NCBI GenBank assembly: GCA_022539475.1 | Contig: VCMS01000339.1 | Coordinates: forward strand, 1-57,853 | Length of the DNA stretch: 57,853 nt | Source: Gracilaria domingensis | Taxonomy: Eukaryota > Rhodophyta > Florideophyceae > Gracilariales > Gracilariaceae | Direction: 5' to 3' | Shown: positions 1 to 57,853 of the stretch, in pieces | Position numbering within the stretch: the first letter of the stretch is position 1 | How the letters are laid out: the number at the start of each line of letters is the position of its first letter | Translations under genes and position numbers: made by a program | Notes under the pieces: generated by a model | What the model was told of the DNA's origin: nothing | What the model saw: only the letters and a program-made list of their open reading frames with translations | Databases searched by the model: none

Positions 1-1272
1 AAGAAGCATAAAATTGAGGTGTGCGACGAGTTTCGAGGGGTTGCTCGAGCAGTGTATCACAACATGCTGACGTGGGCAAGGAGAGAAACAAGTGAGCTAT
101 GGCTCGAAGGTGAGTCGCTCACCCGAAATTGGGGTAACCGTGCCGAGAAGGTGGAAGACGCAACTGAGAGTGGGGAAGGGCTTATTGAGCCGGAGGAAGG
201 TGGTTCATACATGGTTCCTAAAAACCCCGTGGAGCTCTTGGGCAGTTTTGGCATGTTCACACCGTCGGTAGAGGGGGGACCAGATGCTTTGCTGAAGAAA
301 ATGGTTGAAAGCGAGTTGAAGGAGTTGAGCTGGGAAGGTATTAGAAAAGCATCTCTTACCGACAGGTGTATACTGGAACTTTGTGCAGATATGTGCCTTA
401 GGCAGAGAATGCGGCAGACCATGAGTGACGTCGTGGGCGTTCGTAAGAGAAATACGAGGGATAAACTATTTCTGCTCCTGGGGTACGATCTGATTTGGAG
501 AAGAACAAAGCTGGTAGAAGAGAATGCTGACGAACTCACAATGCAGTTGAAGGAAGCGCAGGAGAACATACTGCGTTTTGACGAAAATGGTGTACCGAAC
601 ACTTCATGGTGGAGAAAAGCCCCATTTGTTCGTCTAAAGTACTCCAATGCGGACAATGTCGAGGATATGCCGACGGAAGATCAAGACTTGTTCTTCCGAA
701 ACCGTGTCGGGGTACAAGTGCTGAAGGAGTTTATTGGGTATGATGTGGAAGACAAGGATACGGGCACCTTTTTAGATGGCACAATACTGTTGCTCGCACG
801 TTTGGACGCTTGGGTGTTGACGGTTGTGAGCCTTCTAAGTACGGATGTGTCAAGGGGTGGCCAGAGACAGAAACTGTTTACAAAGAAGTTTGCTGAACTG
901 CTACCTCTGTGTTTAAAGAATGTTCTGGGGGATGTTAGGCAACATGTCTTGAGGACCAATTCCAGCGAGTTTCATAATTTTGGAACGACAACGGAAGATT
1001 GGACTAAGGTTCTTGGTAATGACATGAGAGAGGCTACATTTGGATATCGAATGCCGTCGAACGGAAGACTTTACTTCACTGTGAAAGAACAATTTTTTAT
1101 TGACAGTGTGAGCCGAAGATTGGGGTCTATTAGCGATTGCTTCGTTGGTGAATGCGAGGAAGGGGATATGGAGTTCAAGGAAATGGACATGAACGATTTC
1201 GGAATTAACACAGGATCACAAGAAAAGGCACCACAAGGTGAACATGTAGAAGATGGAGCCCTTAATGTTTAA
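1..1272 (+). CDS. Coiled-coil element protein, C-terminal part (left copy, truncated by window)
   Basis: The frame is open from base 1 and matches the C-terminal ~420 residues of the complete 798-aa copy at 55288-57684. Only two substitutions were noticed (Leu/Val and Phe/Leu). GTG at 19 is an internal codon, not a start. The visible part is a mixed helical, charged domain with no motif I recognise and an acidic tail. It converges on the transposase ORF, their stop codons overlapping around 1269-1272. Conservation between arms argues that the protein is still functional or very recently so. A role as transposon accessory or DNA-binding partner is inferred from linkage only. Confidence 0.7.
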   Translation, partial: KKHKIEVCDEFRGVARAVYHNMLTWARRETSELWLEGESLTRNWGNRAEKVEDATESGEGLIEPEEGGSYMVPKNPVELLGSFGMFTPSVEGGPDALLKKMVESELKELSWEGIRKASLTDRCILELCADMCLRQRMRQTMSDVVGVRKRNTRDKLFLLLGYDLIWRRTKLVEENADELTMQLKEAQENILRFDENGVPNTSWWRKAPFVRLKYSNADNVEDMPTEDQDLFFRNRVGVQVLKEFIGYDVEDKDTGTFLDGTILLLARLDAWVLTVVSLLSTDVSRGGQRQKLFTKKFAELLPLCLKNVLGDVRQHVLRTNSSEFHNFGTTTEDWTKVLGNDMREATFGYRMPSNGRLYFTVKEQFFIDSVSRRLGSISDCFVGECEEGDMEFKEMDMNDFGINTGSQEKAPQGEHVEDGALNV

Positions 1273-4200
1273 GGCTGTACAAGATCAACGTGCTCAGTTG
1301 GTCCTTCATCTGAATCATGATAGAATCGATTGATGTAGAATCGGTGTTGGAACCATTGAAGTGGAGGACAAAAAGGTGGAGCAGGGTAGTTTGATCGAAC
1401 AACATGGACAGTTCCCTGTAGTGCAGAAGCCGGAACCATCCCGTACCAAGGAGTTAACTCTACGATAGTCTCCGCTTTGGAATGACGAGGGAACGGAAGA
1501 GTGTGGTTCTTTTCATCGTTTGTAGCCCACCGTAAAGATATGCATTTCAATATGTGGTCGATGTTTGTTGCGGGGGGTAAAACCTCGAAATACCGGACGA
1601 ATGCCACCTCTGGTGCGGTAAGTGCAGAATCAAGGAGAGATATTCGAATCAGAGCGACTACCTGGGCAACCCAAGTCTCTGAATCTTCTCCGCTTACCAA
1701 TACAGTGGAAAACTTTGGCTTTCTACTGGGACCAAATGCTGGAGAAGCGAAGACACGTTGGATGATGGGGTATTTGGGTCGTCCCAGCTTAAGTGCCTTA
1801 GAAGACGAATCGAAGTGTTCAAGAGTCGGAACGAAACCGCCTTTCACGACGGCCGAATTCACCAGAGTTATCCTTGTCTTTTCTGGGAAGTATGTAATAG
1901 AGTGCTCATCCAGTGTTTCTTTCACGAGACTGAGGAAAGGAGGAAGGGCCTGTTCACCAATTTGATCAAGAATCGACCTTGTGTCCGTACTTGAGAACAT
2001 TTCTTTAACAGCAGTCCATGTTTTTGAACTGGACATACTTGAAACACAATGTTGAAGAGCTCGTAAAGTGAAAGAACGCCCTCTCATTGCAAACCGAGGA
2101 AGCTGTGTGGAAGTTCCTGGTAAACCTGGATTACGCTGGTAAGGAGTATTGCCATTCCATTGCTTTCTAACATGTCCGTGCTCAATGGAGCGAATAGTCT
2201 CCTCCACAGCCGTTGCTGTTCTTCTGGACGTCTTTTTGTAGTGTCTTTTAAATAGCAGGTGTGCATGTTCGTATATGCCTGCGTCGTAATACTTGATACT
2301 TCCCAGACGGCGAATATCGTCCACGAGATGATCGAGAAGATGAAACTTCAGAGTTCCCAGTCTGGAGGGATGAAAATCCGCCAGAGTCTTTGTTGCGGAA
2401 CGCTTGAAGGCTTCAATCTCCGAACTAAGACACAGGAGAGAGCTTTCAGTCCAATACGGGTCACGATTGTATCTGAATAAGGTCGAGAGCAAGTCCGAAT
2501 ACTGAGAGAAAACGGTTGTGATTGGGGCAACGTCCTGTTCTCCACAGCATATGTCAAAGAATGCTCCTATGCAGGGAAAGACCATGTCAAGTGCTTTGTA
2601 GTTTTTGGCCTCCAGCATTCCACGGAGACCGTCTTTCGTGAAGATACCATTCAAAGATTTGCCTTTCTCCTGCGTGGAGAAATCGATATGTAAACCTTTG
2701 GCAGGAGAATCGCGTTCTATGGCAGCTAGAATTGCGTTTGCATGGTTGAGGAGTTGGGTGCGTATCGTTCGAAATGAACGCGATGCAGATGTTCCTAATG
2801 TGGTGCACAGGGTGTCTGACTGCAGTCTCTCGATTGTGGCCGTTTTTATCAACTTTGAGATGCCGAGATGCAAGTTGTGTAATGGTTCGAATGAGAACAG
2901 ACTGTATGGAGACAATCCCGGGATCATTCCAAGGCTTACGGAAGTTTCGAGGAACGAAGGAATGAGAGATATGGAATTTGAACGCATCAGAGTATCCGCT
3001 TGAGATCTCCTCTCCCTCGCACGACGTGGACGTCTTTCCGCCTCGTCTTTTTGTGCATGTTGCAAGATAGCTGTGTATGTCTTTCGGATGCTTTTCGTGT
3101 GCTTTTGAGAACGTCCGTTGAATGAGGTGGGAATAGGACTGCATAAAGATGAGCGAGGGGCTTTGCATCTATGACACGGGCTTTCCGTTTTGGTGCCATC
3201 AAGAATAGACAGAATGTCCTTAGCCTCAGGAATATCCGCACAATAACTTGCAAGCAGAGGATGGCACACTCGACTTAGTTTGTCTTCGCCGATGAACTGA
3301 AAACCTTTCTGCGTGAGATTTAGAATGGACTCCAGGACTTGACGAAGAGATTCTTGAAGGATTTGCATCCTGGACTCGCGTAGAGACTTGCTAGAAACAA
3401 ATGGCATTGCGTCTGCTTCAGATGCGGAAACCTCGATCAGTGTGGTAGGGAAGTATGCCACTACTGTGAGGTCATCACGGATACACTTACGGCGAAGCTG
3501 GTCGGAGAAGTTGAGAAATATGAGGTGAAGAGGATAGGCGGTAACCGATGTTTGCTTTAGAGTTGTTGAAGACTTATCGGTGTATACCTGCAGAAGACCT
3601 ACGAAAGATTCACTGTAACTTATTTCTTGGGAGTACCACACTATTCTACTATCCAAAGAGCCCATGACCATTTCCTTAAGTTTTGAGGTGGCGTCTCTTG
3701 CGAGAGAGCCGGACATGGGGTGAGATATTTTCGTGGAGTGGGTCTGAGGTATAGGGTGGAAGAATGTGTTTTCGTTGTTAGCCAACTGGAGCTGTTTCAC
3801 AAGTGTCTGAACGGGGTCTCTCGTGTAGAGGGTGGCGCTGAACTTACATCCTTCTGGCGAGACAGTTCTGCGATTGAAACCGTCCTTTGAGGCGTATCGT
3901 TCGAAAATGGCCTTCTTCAGTTCTGTACAGCGCTTGGAACTTGTTATGGTCTCGTTGAATCGCTTTTGCGAGAATCGCGGGTCCCGAAGTAGCCCAATTA
4001 GCTCGTCCGCCTCACGATGACCAAGGTTGGAAGCTACTGAAGCCAGACAAACCGTGAGATAATCCATATGCAAATCACCGAGGGCCTCCTCAGAAGGCAC
4101 TGGGCGGGAACTGCTTCCGTGTTCTCGCTCTAATGACGCGGGACCCGGGGAAGGAGAAACACAATGCGAAGTTTCCGGAATGGGAGGGGCGCACGGAGTG

Positions 4201-4544
4201 GGGTCGACGATGTCCTCGGACACTGGAGGCTCGGGAAGGCGACAAGGGGCAGTGACCGTTTCGGAAGATGCGGGCGCGGGTGCGGAAAGCTTGAGACGCT
4301 TGCTTCTCCGAATGGGCCGGCTATTGTCGTCTTCCAGCGCTGCTTTCAGACGAAACGGGCAATGGTTGACATGCTGTTGAAGGGATAAGACTCCTCGGCG
4401 AGTAACGAAGGGGCACCCACGCTTCTTATGTGTACAGTAGTAGACCATGGGAAGAAGAACTGAACGAGAAACGACGACAAAGACTGCAAGGGAAGGGCGT
4501 CCGAAGGGAGAAGGAGGTCGAGCGACAGTCAAGATCGACGTCAT
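1269..4544 (-). CDS. Plavaka/KDZ-like transposase, 1091 aa (left copy)
   Basis: An intact 1091-codon ORF. A CCHC-type finger near the N terminus (Cys37, Cys44, His58, Cys62) suggests that Met33 may be the real start. A basic stretch RRSKRLK follows around residue 80. Around residue 435-460 comes an ADIPEA segment and a CHRC pair, then PLHNLHLGIS near 553, then a C-terminal block near 737-790 (LLDHLVDDIRRLG, YEHAHLLFKR, TSRRTATAVEE). This order resembles the large transposases of Plavaka and Kyakuja/Dileera/Zisupton elements, which cut and paste DNA. I did not assign the catalytic acids. It differs from the right copy at about seven residues. Confidence 0.65.
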   Translation of the reverse strand: MTSILTVARPPSPFGRPSLAVFVVVSRSVLLPMVYYCTHKKRGCPFVTRRGVLSLQQHVNHCPFRLKAALEDDNSRPIRRSKRLKLSAPAPASSETVTAPCRLPEPPVSEDIVDPTPCAPPIPETSHCVSPSPGPASLEREHGSSSRPVPSEEALGDLHMDYLTVCLASVASNLGHREADELIGLLRDPRFSQKRFNETITSSKRCTELKKAIFERYASKDGFNRRTVSPEGCKFSATLYTRDPVQTLVKQLQLANNENTFFHPIPQTHSTKISHPMSGSLARDATSKLKEMVMGSLDSRIVWYSQEISYSESFVGLLQVYTDKSSTTLKQTSVTAYPLHLIFLNFSDQLRRKCIRDDLTVVAYFPTTLIEVSASEADAMPFVSSKSLRESRMQILQESLRQVLESILNLTQKGFQFIGEDKLSRVCHPLLASYCADIPEAKDILSILDGTKTESPCHRCKAPRSSLCSPIPTSFNGRSQKHTKSIRKTYTAILQHAQKDEAERRPRRARERRSQADTLMRSNSISLIPSFLETSVSLGMIPGLSPYSLFSFEPLHNLHLGISKLIKTATIERLQSDTLCTTLGTSASRSFRTIRTQLLNHANAILAAIERDSPAKGLHIDFSTQEKGKSLNGIFTKDGLRGMLEAKNYKALDMVFPCIGAFFDICCGEQDVAPITTVFSQYSDLLSTLFRYNRDPYWTESSLLCLSSEIEAFKRSATKTLADFHPSRLGTLKFHLLDHLVDDIRRLGSIKYYDAGIYEHAHLLFKRHYKKTSRRTATAVEETIRSIEHGHVRKQWNGNTPYQRNPGLPGTSTQLPRFAMRGRSFTLRALQHCVSSMSSSKTWTAVKEMFSSTDTRSILDQIGEQALPPFLSLVKETLDEHSITYFPEKTRITLVNSAVVKGGFVPTLEHFDSSSKALKLGRPKYPIIQRVFASPAFGPSRKPKFSTVLVSGEDSETWVAQVVALIRISLLDSALTAPEVAFVRYFEVLPPATNIDHILKCISLRWATNDEKNHTLPFPRHSKAETIVELTPWYGMVPASALQGTVHVVRSNYPAPPFCPPLQWFQHRFYINRFYHDSDEGPTEHVDLVQP

Positions 4545-4817
4545 GCTGAGAACGGAGAATATATTTTGAGTTCAAATCACGTGCTTTCGTTCAAAAAGGA
4601 ACGTAGGTACACGTCGACCTCAACACAAGGGTGTACTTCTCGTATTATCTACCACTGGTTATAAACCTGTGGTTTCGCAACGTTGTACGCTGTACACCTG
4701 TCCAATCTCGCACAGAAAAATAAATCTCTTCCCTCCGCCGCCGCCGCCGCGCCTCTGACGTCCGACCTTCCCTTACCGTCGTGATCCGTGCCATCCACAT
4801 CCTCGCGTTATACTCCG
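4545..4817. other. Upstream region of left transposase
   Basis: The sequence between the transposase start and the 35-bp hairpin contains a run of CCG/CGC triplets near 4735-4755 on the plus strand. No TATA box or other clear promoter element is visible. The mirror region on the right arm is 51743-52015. A 100-aa ORF overlaps it, but the hairpin it spans makes coding unlikely. Confidence 0.3.
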
Positions 4818-4892
4818 CTCCGTCCTTCTTTTTTCCTCCCTGTACTTTATGGAGGTTCCTTAAAGTAGAGGGCGGAAAAAAGTAGGACGGAG
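4818..4892. repeat. 35-bp-stem hairpin (left copy)
   Basis: Mirror of 51668-51742. Two 35-base arms pair with four mismatches around a 5-base loop. The stem includes CTCCGTCCT and its complement AGGACGGAG at the outer ends. It sits about 270 bp upstream of the transposase start. It could be a cruciform recognised by the transposase or a transcribed precursor hairpin. Confidence 0.85.
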
Positions 4893-5269
4893 TCATCCGT
4901 ATCTCACGGATGTATTCCGTGCAGTCTTTTCGTAGGTTCTCTTCCATATTCTTCTATGTATCTTTGCTCTAAACTAACCCATCCTCACCACGTTTTTTCG
5001 CGCTATTCGACATGTAAACGGCAGAAAATAAGCTTTGGGTTACCGGGTTCCCGTTTTCAGCCTCCAACTCGTTCCATTTGTTCAACTACGTTCTGCTTAC
5101 GATATGTTCCATCTTGTTCTACGTCTTGCTACTAACATTGACGTGATTGAAGGTAACCACTATTTGACGTGCGTCCTTTGTATTTCTTCCGACGTCCACA
5201 ACGACTGTAAGTACGCAACCAGTTTCATTTCGTCTCTCAAGATCGATCTCTGACTGCTCGTGTAACCTA

Positions 5270-5710
5270 TCACGCGGTATTGCCGATCTTGGTTCACTTT
5301 GTTGCGCCATAGGCGTCTCTAGCTTCTCGCATCTTGCGCTACTTTTGGTTTGTTGGCGATCTTGGTTCCGCCATAGACTCTTCTCTCTTCTCGCGTCTTG
5401 CGCTGCTTTTGGTGTATTGGCGATATTGGTTGATATTGGTTGACTGGCTCGGGCGATAGGTTCATCATTGGCAATCTTGGTTGACTAGGTTGCGCCATAG
5501 GATGGTCTCTCTCTTATCGCGTCTTGCGTTACTTTTGGTGCATTGGCGATATGGTTTGACTTGGTTGCCTCATAGACTCGCCTCTCTTCTCGCGCCTTAC
5601 GTTGATCTTCTTGTATTGGCGATCTTGGTTGACTGGCTTGCGGGATAGTCGATTCTGGTACTTGGTTGCGACATAGGCTGCTCTCTCGTTTATCGCATTT
5701 TGCGGTATGT
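5270..5710. repeat. Degenerate ~75-bp tandem repeat array (left copy)
   Basis: Key words recur in order: TTGGCGATCTTGG, GCGCCATAG and TCTCGCGTCTTGCG. The GCGCCATAG-like word recurs at about 5304, 5368, 5492, 5567, 5639 and 5668. Read on the minus strand, the units translate to related peptides such as IANTPKAAQDARREKR and IANKPKVAQDAR, so this may be a decayed repeat-coding exon. The right-arm mirror is 50850-51290. Confidence 0.7.
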
Positions 5711-6013
5711 TTGCTGCATGGGTATTCTTGGTGTCGTTGCTTGTGAGTTCTCGCTTCGACACCTTTCGCGGTTTACGATGATATGGTGGGCTTGTAATCT
5801 AACCGATCCCTTTCCTGCTTCTTCTTCCGTTTGCGAGTTACCAGGTCCCTCGACTTTTCTAGCGCAACGTTTCTGTTTTGTTTTATCAATGGTACGTTCC
5901 ATCGCATTTCAAATGTATCTAACGGATCATTGACTAACTTATGGATACTTTCGGCTTGCGTATACAGGTAAATGACTTTTGATGCGTACGTAGCTCACGA
6001 GTTGCAGGTGCAG

Positions 6014-6065
6014 GTTCCTCAAGTAGGGAACCATGCATCTGGGCATGGTTCCCTACATGAGGAAC
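6014..6065. repeat. Long palindrome 1 (left copy)
   Basis: Arms of 23 bases (6014-6036 and 6043-6065) pair with a single mismatch around a 6-base loop. The inner part contains GTAGGGAACCATGC. The mirror is 50495-50546. Confidence 0.9.
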
Positions 6066-6066
6066 G

Positions 6067-6099
6067 GAGAGGATGAGGCGCTTCGCGCCTCATCCTCTC
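6067..6099. repeat. Palindrome 2 (left copy), perfect 15-bp stem
   Basis: GAGAGGATGAGGCGC, loop TTC, and the exact complement. The right copy (50461-50493) has one base change in the outer stem. It starts two bases after palindrome 1 ends. Confidence 0.9.
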
Positions 6100-6146
6100 G
6101 GAGTGCGTATGTGTTCTACCGATCCAGCACTATGGTGCAGGTGCCC

Positions 6147-6166
6147 TCTGCGGCATCTGCCGCAGA
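6147..6166. repeat. Palindrome 3 (left copy)
   Basis: TCTGCGGCA, spacer TC, TGCCGCAGA: a perfect 9-bp stem. It is the third in a row after the two longer palindromes. The mirror is 50394-50413. Confidence 0.85.
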
Positions 6167-6464
6167 TTGCGCCTACACCCGATCCATCATGGGGAAATGG
6201 TACATGTAATATAGCGAAGTAGTGGTTAGCAAAAGCGGTCGATAGAAGAATAGATACGAATAAAACGGTATGATTTCATAATGGGCATCATCTGTACTAG
6301 CACTAGTATTCCATGCGTTGCAGGGTATCATTCCGCAGAAGGTATCGTGTAATGTGCACCTTAATGGAAACTGAACCTAGACTTCGCGAAATACAGTTCA
6401 GGTAGCCCTCGACTAAAGAACTAGCACGAGTGGAAAACCCACCAGTATTTACTGCACAGCGATT

Positions 6465-6564
6465 CTGGACGACCCAAGCAATTATCTGCAGATTTTGAAA
6501 TAATTGATCTCGATATTTTTTCAAAAAATTTACTGGACGACCCTTGCCAATTTCTGGACGACCC
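6465..6564. repeat. Three GGTCGTCCAG subterminal iterons (left copy, minus orientation)
   Basis: CTGGACGACCC occurs at 6465-6475, 6533-6543 and 6554-6564, all in one orientation, within 140 bp of the element terminus at 6598. Short direct repeats close to a transposon end are typical transposase-binding sites. That role is inferred. Confidence 0.75.
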
Positions 6565-6598
6565 TCGCCAAAAACTAGCATCTGCAAGAGACAGACGA

Positions 6599-6948
6599 AT
6601 TGAAGGCCCAGGCAACTGTATCAATATCTTCTTGGTCTTTTGCACGACTTTCGTGTCCACAGCAAAAGACAGTAAGTTCCCAAACAGCAAAAACAAGACG
6701 AATAATGCTGAGGGGGAAAGTAATTTTAAGTTTGATAAAGACTTGTGCGGAATCCAATACCTTGCTTGGGTGATGATTTGAATAACTTCAGGCACTAAAC
6801 AAAGTTTTTCATTGCGCGAATGAAGTTGCGTGCAAATCTGAGCTGTTATCCTGGTGATGACTAAGGCGAAAATAACGATAAACAGTTCAGGAACCAGAAG
6901 AGTGATGAGGTTCACGACCCAAATCTTAACGTTAGATAGGTCAACCAT
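6599..6948 (-). pseudogene. 5' end of a two-helix membrane protein, cut by the left arm
   Basis: ATG at 6948 opens a frame of about 117 residues before the element boundary. The frame then runs on for about 58 residues into element sequence and stops at 6421. The flank-derived part has two strongly hydrophobic segments (around residues 11-32 and 78-94) and no recognised domain. Loss of similarity to the right arm exactly at 6598 shows that the tail is not native. Either the element inserted into this gene, or the junction is a rearrangement. No 3' part of the gene is seen beside the right arm. Confidence 0.5.
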
Positions 6949-8400
6949 AGCTAATGTCAGTTAGAATGTTTCGCAAATGAGCAGATCAGTGCTTTATAAT
7001 GCCCTTAGCAGACGGCATTGAGGGCTTAAACGCCTTGGCAGCGAGTACTCCACGCGTTTATTCGTTTAGATAGGAAACAAGCACAGTGGCTCATCTGCGC
7101 TTAACTCCTTTAATGTCTAAAGCAAGCTCTGATTCATAGCATCAGGTAGTTACGCCCATAAACAGAGAGAGAGAGAGAGCATCAGGTAGAACTTTCGCTA
7201 AAAAGAAGCTTTCTATCGAGAAAGGCAACTACTCTATATGAATGTTGTCTAACATTCTTGGAGACTAAGTCGTTCAGCTATGGAATGGGGTGTCTCGCAA
7301 CGAGGGGCGTTTGAGAAATGGCTTGTTAAGGCCACACGCTGTGCGCCCTTGTTAATAAGTGTCACATATTGACGCCGTTCGAACTTTCTGTTCATGTGGG
7401 ACGGGACGAGAAGCTCAGGAACGTGCCCTGCGAGAACTCGAGTTAGAACGGCTTTCGGTTTGTGCACAACAAATTCATTTGTCAGGCACTCGAGCCATTC
7501 TGGGGCTCCGTGAACGGAGCCTAGGGTGTGTAGGCAACGGAAGGTGTGGTCCTGGAACAACAGCATTAGAATTTTGCTTCAGCTCTACCTAAGAAGCTGA
7601 TGCAAAAAAGGGGCACAGAAAAGCTGGATGTCTATGAATAGATTTGCTCTTTTATATAAAGTCCGATAGGTGAACCAACCTCACAAGAGTAAGGCCCGTT
7701 CCACATCGGGGCAATCGCATTTCCTGCAAACGACAAGAATCGTTTACGAAGGTAAGAGGGTTCTGGGGCCAACTTGATTGGGGATGATCTGATGCTCGCT
7801 GCGCGTGGGTGCCAAGCCATTCTGCGGCATTCTTCTTCGCCATTGATCTGCCTCTGATGAAGTCTTCCGGCGTGGGCCGTCTCTCAAGCTGCGTAGACGC
7901 TGTATGATCCATGCTAGCCTCTACTTCTTTCGGCCGTACCTTCGGCGGTGGCGAGGTCGTCAAGTTTGCTTGCATGCGCCATAGAAATCGATCGCGGTTG
8001 CCAAGAGGACGTCGACTGACGCATTCTACTGTTGCACAGAACAGTGAATCTGATGCAAGTGACCAGAGCGATGCCGTTTTCGCAATATCCGAATATAAAG
8101 AGCTGTCTACAGGCTGTACGTTCCCTTGTGCGAATGACGCGAGTTCCGCGTTGCCTGCGCCACTTTCCATTACAGTTGCACGCTTCCCAGCCTAGTTCAG
8201 ATTCGGTCATGTATCGAATACATGAATAGCATCGAGCCGAGCCGAAGACAATCTCCAACATAGATCCCTCCCTCGAGAGCTAGCAACGAATATGCGCGGG
8301 TTGAAAGTTTCAACTTGAAACCATGTCACGGAGCAACAAAGCTACACGTCTCTAGTAGATACATAGCCCTCTTACTATCTACAGCTGCTGTAGCTATACG
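6949..8400. other. No recognised gene; microsatellite
   Basis: I recognise no gene here. An (AG)8 run lies at 7164-7179, and the 11-base word GCATCAGGTAG occurs on both sides of it (7139-7149 and 7179-7189). The longest open frame is 172 codons on the minus strand at 7652-8170, with no motif or family resemblance that I can name. Confidence 0.3.
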
Positions 8401-8458
8401 TGTGCACGTGGTCGAATAGAGTCGGTTTACGATTGGTATCCGAATCCGTTGATGTACC

Positions 8459-8837
8459 CGTCTACCCGAAGCGGCGCACGGCGGCGGCCACCACGGCGCC
8501 GCCGATGCACGGCAGCCGGCGCGAGCAGCACACGCGTGCCGCGCCCAGCACCGCCGCCACGCCGTCGCTCTCGCCCGCGCCCAGCCGCAGCCGCTGCAGC
8601 CGCAGCCGCGTGAGCATCTTCGAGCACTACGGGCACTTCCTCAAGTGGAAGGGACCGCGGCTGGCGCTGGACCGCTTCGAGGTGGTGGGCGGCGACGTGC
8701 CGGGGCTGGCTCACGTGGCCGCCGTGAGGCGGCTCAAGAGCGTATCAGCGCTGCGGCTGCGCGAGAGCGCGCCGCTGGCGCGCCGCCTGGGCGCCGACCG
8801 CGCCGCCGCCGGCGCCGCGCCGCAAAACGCCGTGTGA
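8459..8837 (+). pseudogene. GC-rich coding fragment, unidentified
   Basis: GC content rises abruptly here compared with both flanks. The plus frame that ends at 8837 reads as protein-like sequence rich in Ala, Arg and Leu, with SIFEHYGHFLKWKGP in the middle. No upstream exon is visible and the frame enters from AT-richer sequence that looks non-coding. I do not recognise the family. It resembles the other GC-rich islands in this window, several of which are pieces of known genes. Confidence 0.3.
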
Positions 8838-9013
8838 CTCTGACTCAAGAGTGAGCAAACAAAAAGAAAGACAGCATGCGTACCAAGGGGATGCTTATAC
8901 CATAATGGTAGTACCATTATCGCTGCAATTAACAGAATCGAAGGCATATAGGTCTCTCCTTCCGAGGTACACAAAAGAAGCCGAGCTCGCAGCGGCGGCA
9001 ATCCGCCTCAGCA

Positions 9014-11221: not shown

Positions 11222-11229
11222 ATTTTAGC

Positions 11230-48172: not shown

Positions 48173-48209
48173 GCCGCGCTCCGTGGCGCGTGCCGTGGCT
48201 CAGCGCACC

Positions 48210-48707: not shown

Positions 48708-48899
48708 GTCGCTAAACGCTAAACGGTGGGCGATGCGAAGAAGTCAACGTATGCATGTCACAACTTCTCAAGTTCGGTCGTTTCACGATTGCGGCTTTTT
48801 AGTAACGAATTTCTCTTTGCAACGTTCTCTCTTGCTCCTCGTGCCTGGTCTAGCCTAATCTGTAACACAGCACACCCAGGCCCTTCTTAAACAGACATT

Positions 48900-49440
48900 G
48901 TGCACTGCTTATTCTTTTCGAAATGGTGGCGAAAAAACTTTGCTCTAGAGCCCTTTGAGGATATGCAATGCTCTAGTCTTCTATACTGGGCGATATCAGG
49001 TGGAGTAGCTGCACTTGCTGACAGAGGGTTTCATCCGACCAAATCCGCCATATCAGCAACCCAATTTGATCACGGGCAGTCGATTCTGACATACTTGGTA
49101 ACAATAACGAATGTTGATCGCAAAGCAGACGTTTTCAAGCGTGCGATCCGATCACAGCTAAAAAGAAAGCTTCTCAAGGGTGCCCATCGCATTGATCGCG
49201 ACTTTCGTGTTCTTTCCGCTCTGGCTTTCTTGCCTGTCTTGTCCCTCAGGTATACGGATTTTTTGAACACAAATCATTGCTGGGGGTACCGTTTTATGCT
49301 ATGAGCTATGTAGAAGGTCGCATATTCAAGGACATAAGCTCAAGTGAAGTTCAATCTGCGGCTGAAAGGGCTGAAGTATTTAGTGAAGCACTGCGAGTTT
49401 TGGCAGCTCTGAGACAAATGGATGGAGGAAACTTGCGAGC
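48900..49440 (+). pseudogene. ACAD10/11-type phosphotransferase (APH family) fragment
   Basis: ATQFDHGQSILTYLVTITN and LLKGAHRIDRDFRVLSAL lie in one frame. AMSYVEGRIFKD is in the next, after a shift near 49280. Together they match the ATP-binding N lobe of the aminoglycoside-phosphotransferase-like kinase domain found in ACAD10/11. The HGDxxxxN catalytic loop is not found, so only the N lobe is present. Confidence 0.7.
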
Positions 49441-49936
49441 CTGAGAACGAAGTATGGTGGGAGGAAACTAAGCTGGGAGATGCATTGTGTGACAATGGAG
49501 AGGCTTCGATATGGAGCGTGGCAACTAATCTGCTGGCCAAGAAGATGTTCTTCATGAACGATGGGGTATACATGATGACAAAAATGTCGAACAGTGTGGG
49601 GAGGACGGAGGCGATACAGCTGTATGTGAAGCGTGCGGAAAATGACTGGAGTTGGAGGGTGAATTGAAGAGTGAAGTGCGACGGCGGCTGTTCTGCGCAA
49701 TCTGCGAAAGCGTGAGCACTGTACAGTTACTAACAGAACTACTAGAGTGGATACAACCGCGAAGCAACGAAGACAGGACGGCTGTGGTATGCGTTGTACA
49801 AAGGTTGCTCCGAGATGGTTGCATACAACGGTTCGGTGTAGAGGAAGGCGACGTGACCGACGAGCAGTTTGCTGCGTGGCATGCAGTGTCGTTAATGCGG
49901 CACAGTCATCAACTTTTACGTCGTGATCGCTTCTGA
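49441..49936 (+). pseudogene. Unidentified fragment next to the right arm
   Basis: Two plus frames overlap near 49660 (ALCDNGEASIWSVATNLLAK, then LLTELLEWIQPRSNEDRTAV). They look like one helical protein with a frameshift. The second ends at 49936, 25 bp before the element boundary. Not recognised. Confidence 0.3.
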
Positions 49937-49995
49937 ACTGGGCTGCTGGTCTTGCTACTACTCGTCTGTCTCTTGCAGATGCTAGTTTTTGGCGA

Positions 49996-50095
49996 GGGTC
50001 GTCCAGAAATTGGCAAGGGTCGTCCAGTAAATTTTTTGAAAAAATATCGAGATCAATTATTTCAAAATCTGCAGATAATTGCTTGGGTCGTCCAG
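49996..50095. repeat. Three GGTCGTCCAG subterminal iterons (right copy)
   Basis: GGGTCGTCCAG at 49996-50006, 50017-50027 and 50085-50095, same orientation, 34-134 bp inside the terminus at 49962. Confidence 0.75.
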
Positions 50096-50393
50096 AATCG
50101 CTGTGCAGTAAATACTGGTGGGTTTTCCACTCGTGCTAGTTCTTTAGTCGAGGGCTACCTGAACTGTATTTCGCGAAGTCTAGGTTCAGTTTCCATTAAG
50201 GTGCACATTACACGATACCTTCTGCGGAATGATACCCTGCAACGCATGGAATACTAGTGCTAGTACAGATGATGCCCATTATGAAATCATACCGTTTTAT
50301 TCGTATCTATTCTTCTATCGACCGCTTTTGCTAACCACTACTTCGCTATATTACATGTACCATTTCCCCATGATGGATCGGGTGTAGGCGCAA

Positions 50394-50546
50394 TCTGCGG
50401 CAGATGCCGCAGAGGGCACCTGCACCATAGTGCTGGATCGGTAGAACACATACGCACTCCAAGAGGATGAGGCGCGAAGCGCCTCATCCTCTCCGTTCCT
50501 CATGTAGGGAACCATGCCCAGATGCATGGTTCCCTACTTGAGGAAC
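50394..50546. repeat. Cluster of three palindromes (right copy)
   Basis: Mirrors of the left-arm palindromes at 50394-50413, 50461-50493 and 50495-50546. The middle one has lost one outer pair by a base change. Stem lengths are 9, 14-15 and 23 bp. Confidence 0.9.
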
Positions 50547-50849
50547 CTGCACCTGCAACTCGTGAGCTACGTACGCATCAAAAGTCATTTACCTGTATAC
50601 GCAAGCAGAAAGTATCCATAAGTTAGTCAATGATCCGTTAGATACATTTGAAATGCGATGGAACGTACCATTGATAAAACAAAACAGAAACGTTGCGCTA
50701 GAAAAGTCGAGGGACCTGGTAACTCGCAAACGGAAGAAGAAGCAGGAAAGGGATCGGTTAGATTACAAGCCCACCATATCATCGTAAACCGCGAAAGGTG
50801 TCGAAGCGAGAACTCACAAGCAACGACACCAAGAATACCCATGCAGCAA

Positions 50850-51290
50850 ACATACCGCAAAATGCGATAAACGAGAGAGCAGCCTATGTCGCAACCAAGT
50901 ACCAGAATCGACTATCCCGCAAGCCAGTCAACCAAGATCGCCAATACAAGAAGATCAACGTAAGGCGCGAGAAGAGAGGCGAGTCTATGAGGCAACCAAG
51001 TCAAACCATATCGCCAATGCACCAAAAGTAACGCAAGACGCGATAAGAGAGAGACCATCCTATGGCGCAACCTAGTCAACCAAGATTGCCAATGATGAAC
51101 CTATCGCCCGAGCCAGTCAACCAATATCAACCAATATCGCCAATACACCAAAAGCAGCGCAAGACGCGAGAAGAGAGAAGAGTCTATGGCGGAACCAAGA
51201 TCGCCAACAAACCAAAAGTAGCGCAAGATGCGAGAAGCTAGAGACGCCTATGGCGCAACAAAGTGAACCAAGATCGGCAATACCGCGTGA
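50850..51290. repeat. Degenerate ~75-bp tandem repeat array (right copy)
   Basis: Reverse complement of the left array. In one plus frame the units read IANAPKVTQDAIRE, IANTPKAAQDARREKR, IANKPKVAQDAR, separated by YGGTK or YEATK words. Stops and shifts interrupt the frame. Confidence 0.7.
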
Positions 51291-51667
51291 TAGGTTACAC
51301 GAGCAGTCAGAGATCGATCTTGAGAGACGAAATGAAACTGGTTGCGTACTTACAGTCGTTGTGGACGTCGGAAGAAATACAAAGGACGCACGTCAAATAG
51401 TGGTTACCTTCAATCACGTCAATGTTAGTAGCAAGACGTAGAACAAGATGGAACATATCGTAAGCAGAACGTAGTTGAACAAATGGAACGAGTTGGAGGC
51501 TGAAAACGGGAACCCGGTAACCCAAAGCTTATTTTCTGCCGTTTACATGTCGAATAGCGCGAAAAAACGTGGTGAGGATGGGTTAGTTTAGAGCAAAGAT
51601 ACATAGAAGAATATGGAAGAGAACCTACGAAAAGACTGCACGGAATACATCCGTGAGATACGGATGA

Positions 51668-51742
51668 CTCCGTCCTACTTTTTTCCGCCCTCTACTTTAA
51701 GGAACCTCCATAAAGTACAGGGAGGAAAAAAGAAGGACGGAG
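51668..51742. repeat. 35-bp-stem hairpin (right copy)
   Basis: Arms 51668-51702 and 51708-51742 pair with four mismatches around the loop AACCT. Located about 270 bp upstream of the transposase ATG. Confidence 0.85.
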
Positions 51743-52015
51743 CGGAGTATAACGCGAGGATGTGGATGGCACGGATCACGACGGTAACGGAAGTTCGGAC
51801 GTCGGAGGCGCGGCGGCGGCGGCGGAGGGAAGAGATTTATTTTTCTGTGCGAGATTGGACAGGTGTACAGCGTACAACGTTGCGAAACCACAGGTTTATA
51901 ACCAGTGGTAGATAATACGAGAAGTACACCCTTGTGTTGAGGTCGACGTGTACCTACGTTCCTTTTTGAACGAAAGCACGTGATTTGAACTCAAAATATA
52001 TTCTCCGTTCTCAGC

Positions 52016-55000
52016 ATGACGTCGATCTTGACTGTCGCTCGACCTCCTTCTCCCTTCGGACGCCCTTCCCTTGCAGTATTTGTCGTCGTTTCTCGTTCAG
52101 TTCTTCTTCCCATGGTCTACTACTGTACACATAAGAAGCGTGGGTGCCCCTTCGTTACTCGCCGAGGAGTCTTATCCCTTCAACAGCATGTCAACCATTG
52201 CCCGTTTCGTCTGAAAGCAGCGCTGGAAGACGACAATAGCCGGCCCATTCGGAGAAGCAAGCGTCTCAAGCTTTCCGCACCCGCGCCCGCATCTTCCGAA
52301 ACGGTCACTGCCCCTTGTCGCCTTCCCGAGCCTCCAGTGTCCGAGGACATCGTCGACCCCACTCCGTGCGCCCCTCCCATTCCGGAAACTTCGCATTGTG
52401 TTTCTCCTTCCCCGGCTCCCGCGTCATTAGAGCGAGAACACGGAAGCAGTTCCCGCCCAGTGCCTTCTGAGGAGGCCCTCGGTGATTTGCATATGGATTA
52501 TCTCACGGTTTGTCTGGCTTCAGTAGCTTCCAACCTTGGTCATCGTGAGGCGGACGAGCTAATTGGGCTACTTCGGGACCCGCGATTCTCGCAAAAGCGA
52601 TTCAACGAGACCATAACAAGTTCCAAGCGCTGTACAGAACTGAAGAAGGCCATTTTCGAACGATACGCCTCAAAGGACGGTTTCAATCGCAGAACTGTCT
52701 CGCCAGAAGGATGTAAGTTCAGCGCCACCCTCTACACGAGAGACCCCGTTCAGACACTTGTGAAACAGCTCCAGTTGGCTAACAACGAAAACACATTCTT
52801 CCACCCTATACCTCAGACCCACTCCACGAAAATATCTCACCCCATGTCCGGCTCTCTCGCAAGAGACGCCACCTCAAAACTTAAGGAAATGGTCATGGGC
52901 TCTTTGGATAGTAGAATAGTGTGGTACTCCCAAGAAATAAGTTACAGTGAATCTTTCGTAGGTCTTCTGCAGGTATACACCGATAAGTCTTCAACAACTC
53001 TAAAGCAAACATCGGTTACCGCCTATCCTCTTCACCTCATATTTCTCAACTTCTCCGACCAGCTTCGCCGTAAGTGTATCCGTGATGACCTCACAGTAGT
53101 GGCATACTTCCCTACCACACTGATCGAGGTTTCCGCATCTGAAGCAGACGCAATGCCATTTGTTTCTAGCAAGTCTCTACGCGAGTCCAGGATGCAAATC
53201 CTTCAAGAATCTCTTCGTCAAGTCCTGGAGCCCATTCTAAATCTCACGCAGAAAGGTTTTCAGTTCATCGGCGAAGACAAACTAAGTCGAGTGTGCCATC
53301 CTCTGCTTGCAAGTTATTGTGCGGATATTCCTGAGGCTAAGGACATTCTGTCTATTCTTCATGGCACCAAAACGGAAAGCCCGTGTCATAGATGCAAAGC
53401 CCCTCGCTCATCTTTATGCAGTCCTATTCCCACCTCATTCAACGGACGTTCTCAAAAGCACACGAAAAGCATCCGAAAGACATACACAGCTATCTTGCAA
53501 CATGCACAAAAAGACGAGGCGGAAAGACGTCCACGTCGTGCGAGGGAGAGGAGATCTCAAGCGGATACTCTGATGCGTTCAAATTCCATATCTCTCATTC
53601 CTTCGTTCCTCGAAACTTCCGTAAGCCTTGGAATGATCCCGGGATTGTCTCCATACAGTCTGTTCTCATTCGAACCATTACACAACTTGCATCTCGGCAT
53701 CTCAAAGTTGATAAAAACGGCCACAATCGAGAGACTGCAGTCAGACACCCTGTGCACCACATTAGGAACATCTGCATCGCGTTCATTTCGAACGATACGC
53801 ACCCAACTCCTCAACCATGCAAACGCAATTCTAGCTGCCATAGAACGCGATTCTCCTGCCAAAGGTTTACATATCGATTTCTCCACGCAGGAGAAAGGCA
53901 AATCTTTGAATGGTATCTTCACGAAAGACGGTCTCCGTGGAATGCTGGAGGCCAAAAACTACAAAGCACTTGACATGGTCTTTCCCTTCATAAGAGCATT
54001 CTTTGACATATGCTGTGGAGAACAGGACGTTGCCCCAATCACAACCGTTTTCTCTCAGTATTCGGACTTGCTCTCGACCTTATTCAGATACAATCGTGAC
54101 CCGTATTGGACTGAAAGCTCTCTCCTGTGTCTTAGTTCGGAGATTGAAGCCTTCAAGCGTTCCGCAACAAAGACTCTGGCGGATTTTCATCCCTCCAGAC
54201 TGGGAACTCTGAAGTTTCATCTTCTCGATCATCTCGTGGACGATATTCGCCGTCTGGGAAGTATCAAGTACTACGACGCAGGCATATACGAACATGCACA
54301 CCTGCTATTTAAAAGACACTACAAAAAGACGTCCAGAAGAACAGCAACGGCTGTGGAGGAGACTATTCGCTCCATTGAGCACGGACATGTTAGAAAGCAA
54401 TGGAATGGCAATACTCCTTACCAGCGTAATCCAGGTTTACCAGGAACTTCCACACAGCTTCCTCGGTTTGCAATGAGAGGGCGTTCTTTCACTTTACGAG
54501 CTCTTCAACATTGTGTTTCAAGTATGTCCAGTTCAAAAACATGGACTGCTGTTAGAGAAATGTTCTCAAGTACGGACACAAGGTCGATTCTTGATCAAAT
54601 TGGTCAACAGGCCCTTCCTCCTTTCCTCAGTCTCGTGAAAGAAACACTGGATGAGCACTCTATTACATACTTCCCAGAAAAGACAAGGATAACTCTGGTG
54701 AATTCGGCCGTCGTGAAAGGCGGTTTCGTTCCGACTCTTGAACACTTCGATTCGTCTTCTAAGGCACTTAAGCTGGGACGACCCAAATACCCCATCATCC
54801 AACGTGTCTTCGCTTCTCCAGCATTTGGTCCCAGTAGAAAGCCAAAGTTTTCCACTGTATTGGTAAGCGGAGAAGATTCAGAGACTTGGGTTGCCCAGGT
54901 AGTCGCTCTGATTCGAATATCTCTCCTTGATTCTGCACTTACCGCACCAGAGGTGGCATTCGTCCGGTATTTCGAGGTTTTACCCCCCGCAACAAACATC

Positions 55001-55291
55001 GACCACATATTGAAATGCATATCTTTACGGTGGGCTACAAACGATGAAAAGAACCACACTCTTCCGTTCCCTCGTCATTCCAAAGCGGAGACTATCGTAG
55101 AGTTAACTCCTTGGTACGGGATGGTTCCGGCTTCTGCACTACAGGGAACTGTCCATGTTGTTCGATCAAACTACCCTGCTCCACCTTTTTGTCCTCCACT
55201 TCAATGGTTCCAACACCGATTCTACATCAATCGATTCTATCATGATTCAGATGAAGGACCAACTGAGCACGTTGATCTTGTACAGCCTTAA
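52016..55291 (+). CDS. Plavaka/KDZ-like transposase, 1091 aa (right copy)
   Basis: Intact. It has the same finger (Cys37, Cys44, His58, Cys62), CHRC pair (457/460), PLHNLHLGIS block and C-terminal YEHAHLLFKR block as the left copy. Differences noticed from the left copy: Ala for Gly in the Pro-rich region, Pro for Ser, His for Asp, Phe for Cys, Arg for Gly, Arg for Lys, Gln for Glu. Both copies are open, so either could supply transposase. Convergent with the 798-aa ORF, stops overlapping at 55288-55291. Confidence 0.65.
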   Translation: MTSILTVARPPSPFGRPSLAVFVVVSRSVLLPMVYYCTHKKRGCPFVTRRGVLSLQQHVNHCPFRLKAALEDDNSRPIRRSKRLKLSAPAPASSETVTAPCRLPEPPVSEDIVDPTPCAPPIPETSHCVSPSPAPASLEREHGSSSRPVPSEEALGDLHMDYLTVCLASVASNLGHREADELIGLLRDPRFSQKRFNETITSSKRCTELKKAIFERYASKDGFNRRTVSPEGCKFSATLYTRDPVQTLVKQLQLANNENTFFHPIPQTHSTKISHPMSGSLARDATSKLKEMVMGSLDSRIVWYSQEISYSESFVGLLQVYTDKSSTTLKQTSVTAYPLHLIFLNFSDQLRRKCIRDDLTVVAYFPTTLIEVSASEADAMPFVSSKSLRESRMQILQESLRQVLEPILNLTQKGFQFIGEDKLSRVCHPLLASYCADIPEAKDILSILHGTKTESPCHRCKAPRSSLCSPIPTSFNGRSQKHTKSIRKTYTAILQHAQKDEAERRPRRARERRSQADTLMRSNSISLIPSFLETSVSLGMIPGLSPYSLFSFEPLHNLHLGISKLIKTATIERLQSDTLCTTLGTSASRSFRTIRTQLLNHANAILAAIERDSPAKGLHIDFSTQEKGKSLNGIFTKDGLRGMLEAKNYKALDMVFPFIRAFFDICCGEQDVAPITTVFSQYSDLLSTLFRYNRDPYWTESSLLCLSSEIEAFKRSATKTLADFHPSRLGTLKFHLLDHLVDDIRRLGSIKYYDAGIYEHAHLLFKRHYKKTSRRTATAVEETIRSIEHGHVRKQWNGNTPYQRNPGLPGTSTQLPRFAMRGRSFTLRALQHCVSSMSSSKTWTAVREMFSSTDTRSILDQIGQQALPPFLSLVKETLDEHSITYFPEKTRITLVNSAVVKGGFVPTLEHFDSSSKALKLGRPKYPIIQRVFASPAFGPSRKPKFSTVLVSGEDSETWVAQVVALIRISLLDSALTAPEVAFVRYFEVLPPATNIDHILKCISLRWATNDEKNHTLPFPRHSKAETIVELTPWYGMVPASALQGTVHVVRSNYPAPPFCPPLQWFQHRFYINRFYHDSDEGPTEHVDLVQP

Positions 55292-57684
55292 ACATTAAGG
55301 GCTCCATCTTCTACATGTTCACCTTGTGGTGCCTTTTCTTGTGATCCTGTGTTAATTCCGAAATCGTTCATGTCCATTTCCTTGAACTCCATATCCCCTT
55401 CCTCGCATTCACCAACGAAGCAATCGCTAATAGACCCCAATCTTCGGCTCACACTGTCAATAAAAAATTGTTCTTTCACAGTGAGGTAAAGTCTTCCGTT
55501 CGACGGCATTCGATATCCAAATGTAGCCTCTCTCATGTCATTACCAAGAACCTTAGTCCAATCTTCCGTTGTCGTTCCAAAATTATGAAACTCGCTGGAA
55601 TTGGTCCTCAAGACATGTTGCCTAACATCCCCCAGAACATTCTTTAAACACACAGGTAGCAGTTCGGCAAACTTCTTTGTAAACAGTTTCTGTCTCTGGC
55701 CACCCCTTGACACATCCGTACTTAGAAGGCTCACAACCGTCAACACCCAAGCGTCCAAACGTGCGAGCAACAGTATTGTGCCATCTAAAAAGGTGCCCGT
55801 ATCCTTGTCTTCCACATCATACCCAATAAACTCCTTCAGCACTTGTACCCCGACACGGTTTCGGAAGAACAAGTCTTGATCTTCCGTCGGCATATCCTCG
55901 ACATTGTCCGCATTGGAGTACTTTAGACGAACAAATGGGGCTTTTCTCCACCATGAAGTGTTCGGTACACCATTTTCGTCAAAACGCAGTATGTTCTCCT
56001 GCGCTTCCTTCAACTGCATTGTGAGTTCGTCAGCATTCTCTTCTACCAGCTTTGTTCTTCTCCAAATCAGATCGTACCCCAGGAGCAGAAATAGTTTATC
56101 CCTCGTATTTCTCTTACGAACGCCCACGACGTCACTCATGGTCTGCCGCATTCTCTGCCTAAGGCACATATCTGCACAAAGTTCCAGTATACACCTGTCG
56201 GTAAGAGATGCTTTTCTAATACCTTCCCAGCTCAACTCCTTCAACTCGCTTTCAACCATTTTCTTCAGCAAAGCATCTGGTCCCCCCTCTACCGACGGTG
56301 TGAACATGCCAAAACTGCCCAAGAGCTCCACGGGGTTTTTAGGAACCATGTATGAACCACCTTCCTCCGGCTCAATAAGCCCTTCCCCACTCTCAGTTGC
56401 GTCTTCCACCTTCTCGGCACGGTTACCCCAATTTCGGGTGAGCGACTCACCTTCGAGCCATAGCTCACTTGTTTCTCTCCTTGCCCACGTCAGCATGTTG
56501 TGATACACTGCTCGAGCAACCCCTCGAAACTCGTCGCACACCTCAATTTTATGCTTCTTTCGACCTGTCTGCCCAGGTTCACCAGCACGTGTACTCCTAT
56601 CTCCCTCCTGTTTCAGTGCCCCTCTTAGCCCTTCAATGACTAGATCCTTCTCTTCAAGCCTCTTTTTCAAAGCCGTACTCTGCTCTTGGGCGACCTTCAC
56701 TAGAATTCCCCGAACCATCAAGTCCTCTTGTAGCGTCTTAACCTTTTCTTTCAAGCAATTCAGTTCATTTAAAAGATCAGGTCTGTTCATAGAGCTTGAA
56801 TTCACACCAGTTTGGATATCTTCCGTTATTTCCCTAGCTTCTTCGGCGACAGGCCCCGGTAATGCCGCAGGATTCGGTGTTATTTCGTTATCGGAACTAT
56901 CCTCATGTGCCATAGCCTTAGCCACGAGAGGCTGCAGGCGTTCTGTGTCCACCCTTGGCACGGCTCCGAGCTCCAACTCCCGTGTATGTCCTCCTCCATG
57001 GCATGGTATATCAGATGAATTGGGCCTCGTACGAGCTGCAACGGCCCCCGTTCTGGAAAGAGGGGAAGGTCGAAAAGTAACTCGTCTATCAGTTGTCTCT
57101 CGATTTCTTATTGTGTTTCTCCCTTGTCCGGACCCATTGCGAGGCATGATACGATTCATAGCGGCCCCAGTTCTAGAAGAGAGGGATGGACGTGACGATC
57201 TTAATATACTAGGACTCTCACGACTTCTCGTCATTGTCCCTTGTTGTCCAGATCCACTGGGCGGCGTAACCCGCGCCCCAGTAGCTCCGGTCTTCGATAT
57301 CGGCCGGGGACATGAAGGTTTTGGTGTCATACGAACCTCTTCGGTTCCAGTTGTCATGCCCTCCTGTCCTGACCCGCTGGGCCGAGTTACCTCATCTTCT
57401 TGAGGAGCAGAGACAGATGCACGATTTGCATTATCGGCAGTTGACGGCACGACATCGTTCGCTGATCCACGAATTCTTGACGCAATCCCGGAAGACGCTC
57501 CGCTGCGAGATGGGCGAGAGAGTCCTGTAGAAGGACGCCCACTGACTCTCTCCTTCGTCGAGGACGACTTCCGTTTAGGAAGTGCGGTGCTTGTAGCCTG
57601 ATTCGTATCATCCGATGCTCTTCTCTTCTTCTGTCCACTCTTGTTCCGCTGCGTACTATTTCGCTTTCTCGGCGTTATACCCAT
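55288..57684 (-). CDS. Coiled-coil protein with three 40-aa repeats, 798 aa (complete copy)
   Basis: ATG at 57684. The N terminus is strongly basic (PRKRN, KKRRAS), likely nuclear. Three tandem 40-residue repeats span Val99-Arg138, Val139-Arg178 and Ile179-Arg218. Each starts with a GSGQ block and ends SRTGA or KTGA. A coiled coil covers about 303-360 (LKEKVKTLQEDL, LKKRLEEKDLVIEGL). A helical C-terminal domain and acidic tail follow. No enzymatic motif seen. Linkage to the transposase in both arms suggests a second element protein, perhaps DNA-binding or scaffolding. That is an inference. Confidence 0.7.
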   Translation of the reverse strand: MGITPRKRNSTQRNKSGQKKRRASDDTNQATSTALPKRKSSSTKERVSGRPSTGLSRPSRSGASSGIASRIRGSANDVVPSTADNANRASVSAPQEDEVTRPSGSGQEGMTTGTEEVRMTPKPSCPRPISKTGATGARVTPPSGSGQQGTMTRSRESPSILRSSRPSLSSRTGAAMNRIMPRNGSGQGRNTIRNRETTDRRVTFRPSPLSRTGAVAARTRPNSSDIPCHGGGHTRELELGAVPRVDTERLQPLVAKAMAHEDSSDNEITPNPAALPGPVAEEAREITEDIQTGVNSSSMNRPDLLNELNCLKEKVKTLQEDLMVRGILVKVAQEQSTALKKRLEEKDLVIEGLRGALKQEGDRSTRAGEPGQTGRKKHKIEVCDEFRGVARAVYHNMLTWARRETSELWLEGESLTRNWGNRAEKVEDATESGEGLIEPEEGGSYMVPKNPVELLGSFGMFTPSVEGGPDALLKKMVESELKELSWEGIRKASLTDRCILELCADMCLRQRMRQTMSDVVGVRKRNTRDKLFLLLGYDLIWRRTKLVEENADELTMQLKEAQENILRFDENGVPNTSWWRKAPFVRLKYSNADNVEDMPTEDQDLFFRNRVGVQVLKEFIGYDVEDKDTGTFLDGTILLLARLDAWVLTVVSLLSTDVSRGGQRQKLFTKKFAELLPVCLKNVLGDVRQHVLRTNSSEFHNFGTTTEDWTKVLGNDMREATFGYRMPSNGRLYLTVKEQFFIDSVSRRLGSISDCFVGECEEGDMEFKEMDMNDFGINTGSQEKAPQGEHVEDGALNV

Positions 57685-57721
57685 GCTGTGGAGATAAACA
57701 GGGTAATGAAACGAAATTGTT

Positions 57722-57749
57722 GGGGAGGGGGGAGGGGGTGGGGGGGGGG
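57722..57749 (+). promoter_or_regulatory. G-run array upstream of the 798-aa ORF
   Basis: Four runs of 4, 6, 5 and 10 G separated by single A, A and T, about 40 bp upstream of the ATG on the opposite strand. This can form a G-quadruplex and could act in the promoter or 5' leader (as C-runs in the transcript strand). Confidence 0.5.
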
Positions 57750-57853
57750 TGCATGGTTCAGATATTCCGGGAGACTCCGCAGTTCCTGCTTTTTAGGAAT
57801 TTGAGGTGCCCAATGGGTCGCAAATACTCGCGCGTTACAGATGAGAGCTCCAG

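Follow-up and report, generated by a model that had tools for sequence, protein, structure and literature searches.

How does a stretch of 43 kb packed with pieces of host genes come to lie between two inverted, near-identical copies of one large transposon? The question is raised by bases 1-57853 of scaffold C339 (80,429 bases) of the red alga Gracilaria domingensis, a stretch referred to here as the window. At either end of the window lies an arm belonging to an element with a Plavaka-family transposase, and the 43,365 bases between the two element ends, defined as the interior, form a patchwork of gene fragments. All of the interior was searched against a G. domingensis genome assembly of 77.9 Mb in 680 contigs; each search returned best candidates only, and the lack of a match crossing a given position is stated for the matches listed. 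It is likely that two unrelated insertions of an abundant Plavaka-type element took place, in opposite orientation and by chance 43 kb apart, into an older gene-fragment patchwork. The analysis separates two things that seem to be one, namely the bracketing arms and the patchwork itself, and the bracketing of a real mosaic by the arms is probably a coincidence.

Structure and ends of the arms

The arms form an inverted repeat that aligns over 1-6605 and 49955-56559, and the element ends were located at 6597 and 49963 (x + y = 56560), in line with the sum given in an earlier note on this DNA that had placed the boundary at 6598/49962. The inner ends are fixed by the motif CGTCTGTCTCTTGCAGATGC, which is identical in all 30 loci shown, i.e., the two of the window and 28 other copies with this terminus that were picked as the best matches to the end region. 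Both element bodies point outward from these positions, and the interior lies outside both of them. Neither arm is complete, because the left arm meets the contig start and the right arm meets an N gap, 4508 N following directly after the end of the window.

The transposase frame (1091 amino acids, aa) is open in both arms. The open transposase and partner genes that the earlier note had seen in each arm are thus present as far as the transposase is concerned, and the partner gene is whole only in the right arm (798 aa), its left copy being cut by the contig start. The arm protein contains the Plavaka transposase domain (PF18759), and a protein search with it returned no relatives at E<=0.001 among the 7996 candidates scored. 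The inner terminus of the element (CGTCTGTC..) differs from the TGT..ACA and CATCA..TGATG termini given for fungal PlavakaA and PlavakaB, respectively, in the available part of PMC12730594. The arms are an element with a Plavaka-family transposase, which is assigned neither to PlavakaA nor to PlavakaB.

Relationship of the two arms

The two arms are identical at 6580 of 6597 positions (99.74%). The 17 mismatches between them compare with 18 and 17 mismatches that separate a copy on C108 from the left and the right arm, respectively, over the same 6597 sites. Over the first 2238 bases, the left arm differs at two positions from each of the copies on C246 and C158 and at six from the right arm; over bases 3098-6597 (3500 bases), the right arm shows five to seven differences to six other copies (five to the copy on C50) and ten to the left arm. 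In the stretches compared, each arm has a distant copy that matches it more closely than its partner does, and the arms are therefore two independent members of a young family. On this kinship, a local gene conversion or an inverted duplication of the arms was rejected, and the homogenisation by conversion that had been considered for them is not needed. From base 8592 of locus L055 on, after a single N, the C108 copy becomes indel-rich and is 86.6% identical to the window arm, as if this stretch were uncorrected long-read sequence.

The end pattern, allowing up to three mismatches, is present 563 times in the genome (300 forward, 263 reverse), and the reversed control pattern is not found at all (0 occurrences); the element is very abundant and probably recently active. 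Uniform random placement of 563 ends would give about 38 outward-facing neighbour pairs within 43 kb. The first 100 of these ends form 50 neighbour pairs on the same contig (22 ++, 13 --, 11 -+ and 4 +-), and four of the 11 outward (-+) pairs lie within 43 kb. A second outward pair of arms on C262, in opposite directions and 1273 bases apart (L021:228-1500), surrounds Gypsy-like DNA in which a reverse transcriptase domain scores above the cut-off and an RNase H domain slightly too low to reach it; this intervening DNA is uninterrupted in 39 of the 39 other places scored (of 683 candidates), at 89-90% identity. Inverted arms are what chance yields in a genome with hundreds of copies.

In the flanks of 20 of the 28 other copies, from each of which one frame was scanned, a retroelement domain was found above the cut-off in seven and below it in one (L022), a host gene in two (FPL and HECT), a DNA methylase in one and no match in nine. 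As far as this flank sample shows, the arms do not appear to be generally tied to gene-fragment mosaics. Two pairs of flanks, L017/L018 and L028/L031, are identical over the 50 bases shown beside the junction and lie on different contigs, which suggests redundant contigs or copies of a larger repeat.

Evidence for insertion

The sequence immediately to the right of the left arm is present on C160 (91% identity), where it continues free of the element, the break lying directly at the arm end. The flank of the right arm is likewise present on C14 (90%), and it continues there without the element. Intact inner ends together with element-free paralogues on both sides therefore indicate insertion. 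Of the histories offered in the earlier note, two insertions into a decaying region is the one that fits the kinship of the arms, the 563 ends and the element-free C160 and C14 loci.

That note had also proposed that the whole unit is a composite or Pack-type element that has collected gene fragments. In a composite transposon, the inverted elements would move jointly with the 43 kb between them; the arms are indeed inverted and near-identical with open transposase frames, tandem insertion followed by re-mobilisation is proposed as a route of Pack-CACTA capture in the part of PMC8903248 available, and joint movement would explain why no continuation of the flanking paralogues on C160 and C14 was found beyond the arms. 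Against this, each arm has a nearer relative elsewhere than its partner over the stretches compared, the fragments are more diverged than the arms and lie outside both elements, and chance predicts outward pairs such as that on C262, which brackets Gypsy-like DNA. The genome searches with the interior gave no second copy of the unit among the matches listed, and 17 of the 18 scored junctions between its pieces (see below) are crossed by no listed match. Because of the arm kinship, the orientation of the elements and the missing second copy, the composite or Pack-type reading fails, and joint movement is very unlikely.

Composition of the interior

The best genome matches of the interior amount to 45 tiles from 32 contigs and cover 87.7% of its 43,365 bases (84.5% when tiles are limited to at least 75% identity). 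Merging collinear tiles separated by under 2.5 kb of source sequence gives 41 fragments (25 plus-strand and 16 minus-strand) with six pairs of close sources, and a 10-kb merging rule gives 36 segments with three non-collinear close pairs. Identity to the best sources ranges from 65 to 96%, against 99.7% between the arms, in line with the earlier observation that the fragments are far more decayed than the arms. The presence of at least a dozen unrelated host genes had also been claimed; it is borne out by the number of source contigs, and named Pfam families account for only nine. These nine unrelated families (WD40, RNase_T, AAA_11, catalase, aldo/keto reductase, PEP-utilising enzyme, Orn/Arg decarboxylase, PRP8 domain IV and peptidase M24) score above the curated cut-off in 10 of the 74 interior frames scanned, a few of which were scanned twice and one of which spans the left arm end. 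The features are collected in Table 1.

Table 1. Features of the two arms, of the interior and of one related copy of the element
Feature	Position	Strand	Basis or remark
Left arm, element with Plavaka transposase	1..6597	-	terminus 6597 CGTCTGTCTCTTGCAGATGC on minus strand; remainder cut off by contig start
Transposase gene, left arm, 1091 aa	1269..4544	-	open frame; right-arm copy matches PF18759
Partner gene, left arm	1..1272	+	cut by contig start
Right arm, same element as left arm	49963..57853	+	runs into 4508 N
Transposase gene, right arm, 1091 aa	52016..55291	+	PF18759 Plavaka, E=1e-18, 68.1 bits, cut-off 26.3
Partner gene, right arm, 798 aa	55288..57684	-	no Pfam match at E<=1
Methylase-SET gene of C597 copy	L058:1080-4217	-	N6_N4_Mtase and SET domains
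Interior mosaic, 36-41 segments by merging rule, 32 contigs	6598..49962	.	genome searches
C160-like fragment (91%), holds WD40 piece	6598..11395	-	genome match reaching left arm end
Three collinear pieces of C40 peptidase M24 locus (168355-171732)	19793..22105	+	genome match, Pfam
Second C62 piece, 570 bases from source of PEP fragment	21279..21478		genome match
C7 segment, first half (598420-600592), RNase_T exonuclease frame	25142..27305	+	genome match, Pfam
PEP-utilising enzyme domain fragment from C62	29173..29785	+	genome match, Pfam
Three collinear pieces of C98:97006-102189 (84-90%)	31446..34003	+	genome match
C7 segment, second half (604104-600627), inverted, 8.6 kb from first	35907..39179	-	genome match
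C30 fragment (95%), holds AAA_11 piece	39199..42021	-	genome match, Pfam
C126 fragment (96%)	42629..43988	-	genome match
C25 fragment (95%), start of PRP8 domain IV at about 44209-44316	43984..44483	+	genome match, Pfam
Catalase fragment, broken by in-frame TGA and frame break	44484..45405	+	Pfam, genome match
Catalase / aldo/keto reductase fusion, open frame	45187..45903	+	Pfam, genome match
Orn/Arg decarboxylase fragment, C113-like locus (95%)	45904..48089	-	genome match, Pfam
C14-like fragment (90%)	49660..49962	+	stops exactly at right arm; C14 element-free there

Several fragments retain the arrangement of their source. In the case of the peptidase M24 locus on C40, C220-like and C62-like pieces together with unmatched DNA take the place of the stretch between the first two pieces, and at 21711|21712 the window lacks 829 bases of the source. 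Because the window keeps DNA upstream of the C40 gene as well as a later portion of the gene itself, with these 829 bases missing, genomic DNA rather than mRNA was copied. The two parts of the open fusion frame both have their best match on C128, on the same strand, in the same order and 5.5 kb apart, and the join of catalase and aldo/keto reductase may hence be a deletion. Three non-collinear pairs of pieces (from C117, C62 and C7) have sources less than 5 kb apart, compared with 0.08 expected for random draws.

Such runs bring up a further alternative, in which a few larger, normal gene regions were duplicated as segments and then broken in place by deletion, inversion and insertion. The gapped collinear runs of C40 (3.4 kb) and C98 (5.2 kb), two such runs of C128, and a contiguous 5.7-kb segment of C7 that is split in two with one half inverted are consistent with decayed segmental duplications, as are the catalase and aldo/keto reductase pieces, which keep the order of neighbouring sources, and contig C242, on which pieces of three window sources are found. 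The 36 segments nevertheless derive from 32 contigs, and most scored junctions join different contigs with no same-source alternative listed, which makes this origin quite unlikely.

Junctions between the pieces

Of the 22 junctions displayed, 18 were scored; J1, J10, J12 and J16 were omitted because their register was unclear or some of their bases were unmatched. The comparison at the junctions used 40 parental stretches, 39 of them 121 bases long. At most of those displayed, identity changes abruptly from one source to the next, and unmatched bases occur at 27306-27312 and 39180-39198. Fourteen of the 18 scored junctions link different contigs without a same-source alternative among the matches listed. 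With the exception of J21, no listed genome match crosses a scored junction; because 17 of the 18 are uncrossed, the arrangement looks unique in the assembly as far as the best candidates scored by the search show. Overlaps between matches of up to 17 bases had suggested a microhomology signature, a claim that was dropped after base-by-base scoring against shuffled sequences (P=0.09). The scored joins share no base in eight cases, one base in three and two to five bases in seven, with a mean of 1.56 versus 1.09 after shuffling.

The patchwork, or blocks of it, could also have been built inside another mobile element whose ends have since decayed, through Pack-type capture by another transposon or by a Helitron. 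In fragment size, in the use of both orientations and in multi-locus content the interior is like the Pack-TYPE cargo described in the accessible part of PMC8903248, and it resembles the stepwise Helitron capture that an excerpt of PMC3288121 reports for maize. No repeat of at least 24 bases was found to bracket the interior, and no transposase or Helitron model is among the 10 Pfam-positive frames of the 74 scanned, no search having been made for Helitron ends or with whole blocks as units. On balance, an origin inside such an element is unlikely.

An assembly artefact, i.e., reads from many loci that were misjoined, would account for a mosaic without any biological process. The scaffold starts in a repeat and has its 4508-N gap in a repeat, and the C108 locus contains the indel-rich sequence mentioned above. 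The window itself contains no N, and the fragments are not misplaced reads of their sources because they are 65-96%, not 100%, identical to them; an artefact is thus highly improbable.

Proposed history and points against it

Two insertions into an older patchwork remain the preferred history. The joining of copied pieces would have taken place on the DNA itself, through end-joining or template switching, before the element insertions and in a single bout or more. Internal deletions and at least one inversion would afterwards have altered the patchwork, into which two members of the abundant transposon family would then have inserted. As a unit, the patchwork presumably has no function.

Several observations weigh against parts of this history. 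Four of the 18 scored junctions (J7, J11, J19 and J21) are deletion-like within one source. At J7, J11 and J19, parts of one source contig are joined in collinear order and source DNA is dropped; J21 is a weak case, with an identity of 0.39 on its right side in the ungapped register; compared with C242, C425, C345 and C461 it looks like a deletion, and a match to C298 crosses it. Microhomology at the joins is not clearly above chance (P=0.09) and so singles out no particular joining pathway. A best match is a candidate source and no proof of origin, as a nearer one may have disappeared or be missing from the assembly, and the figure of about 38 outward pairs rests on uniform random insertion.

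The flanks raise further difficulties. Past the left junction, C160 has 1491 bases whose only match other than themselves is a second place on C160, and the continuation of C14 is matched neither in the window nor in the 3.6 kb past the N gap; the expected continuations beyond both arms may lie in unassembled parts. Plavaka transposons generate target-site duplications of 2-3 bp, and the outer ends of the window, a contig start and an N gap, leave no outer flank in which these could be sought. Identity to the sources is, moreover, uneven: it is mostly 93-96% in the intervals 18.4-27.3 kb and 36.6-49.9 kb (with exceptions of 72-90%) and mostly 65-92% elsewhere. Several bouts therefore fit better than a single event, and the unevenness suggests either more than one bout or uneven evolution of the sources.

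Further genes and the distal part of the element

The copy on C597 has a third gene after the partner gene, encoding a 1045-aa protein that fuses an N6_N4_Mtase DNA methylase domain with a SET domain. By its position, this gene would fall in the N gap of the right arm. For the methylase-SET protein, a search of protein sequences gave no relatives at E<=0.001 in the 6464 candidates scored, and the open-access literature yielded nothing on point for transposons that carry a methylase and a SET domain.

Beyond the methylase gene, a GC-rich palindromic stretch of several hundred bases is found on C178, at L067 4225-5005 and at other distal loci. Several contigs stop near this stretch, and no distal end could be located for the element. 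On C178 (92391-94390; L114:61-1998), an open frame of 646 aa without a Pfam match lies beyond the methylase gene and may belong to a larger element as an additional gene. A giant palindromic element with both ends alike was considered and dropped: the longest structure of this kind on C178 is a 100-base inverted repeat that encloses a shorter palindrome, the first 100 of the 563 ends include no forward-reverse neighbours at a constant spacing, and the single candidate pair, on C42, has no target-site duplication.

Comparison with known systems

The element resembles the Plavaka DNA transposons of the CMCT group in its PF18759 domain and in the extra genes alongside the transposase; the elements described in the available part of PMC12730594 are accompanied by TET/JBP, and the element described here has a fused DNA methylase-SET protein instead. 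Large repeats with intron-poor genes beside a Plavaka transposase also form the Plavaka giant repeats of Amoebidium. Those contain tandem clusters of repetitive genes, as far as the excerpt of PMC11244446 describes them, whereas the arms here bracket a patchwork of gene fragments that was not seen a second time. Pack-TYPE transposons likewise join fragments of several host loci at the DNA level; in the portion of PMC8903248 consulted, the captured DNA lies inside the ends of one element, whereas here it lies outside both elements.

Gene-fragment mosaics formed by end-joining occur in B chromosomes or as filler DNA. The interior is like them in that many truncated copies come from unrelated loci and intact relatives lie elsewhere.

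Patchworks elsewhere in the genome and their meaning

The catalase pieces allow intact and partial copies to be compared. A catalase protein has ten matching stretches in the genome, two of them in the window. Full-length catalase genes on C124 and on C128 (the latter at 161393-162763) have an open frame for 458 and 457 of the 458 residues, respectively, and a distant catalase gene on C216 is open at 43% identity. Besides the window, partial matches occur at five places: C181 (42663-43538), C128:157309-157659, C356, C68 and C139. On C242, the pieces of three window sources stand in another order than in the window. Judged from these matches, the scattering of fragments seems to occur elsewhere in the genome too, and the partial catalase copies, like the shared pieces found on C242, C181 and C128, are a hint that patchwork formation goes beyond a single event.

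For red algae, listings of the open-access literature gave nothing on point about fragment mosaics, chromoanagenesis or pseudogenes, and the accessible part of a study of Gracilaria sex chromosomes (PMC12502185) makes no mention of gene fragments or Plavaka. The real oddity of the locus is the patchwork, in which dozens of gene pieces of a red alga are joined without recognisable transposon ends. It is possible, if doubtful, that a process in G. domingensis that does not depend on transposon ends copies stretches of many intact genes with their flanks and welds them into patchworks that extend over tens of kb, perhaps within an accessory or non-recombining genome region, with occasional in-frame fusions such as that of catalase and aldo/keto reductase. 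If such patchworks are common, they would call for caution, as gene counts in assemblies of this kind would need checking against fragment mosaics, and they would open a way to new gene fusions in a group whose genes are compact and, for the most part, intron-poor.

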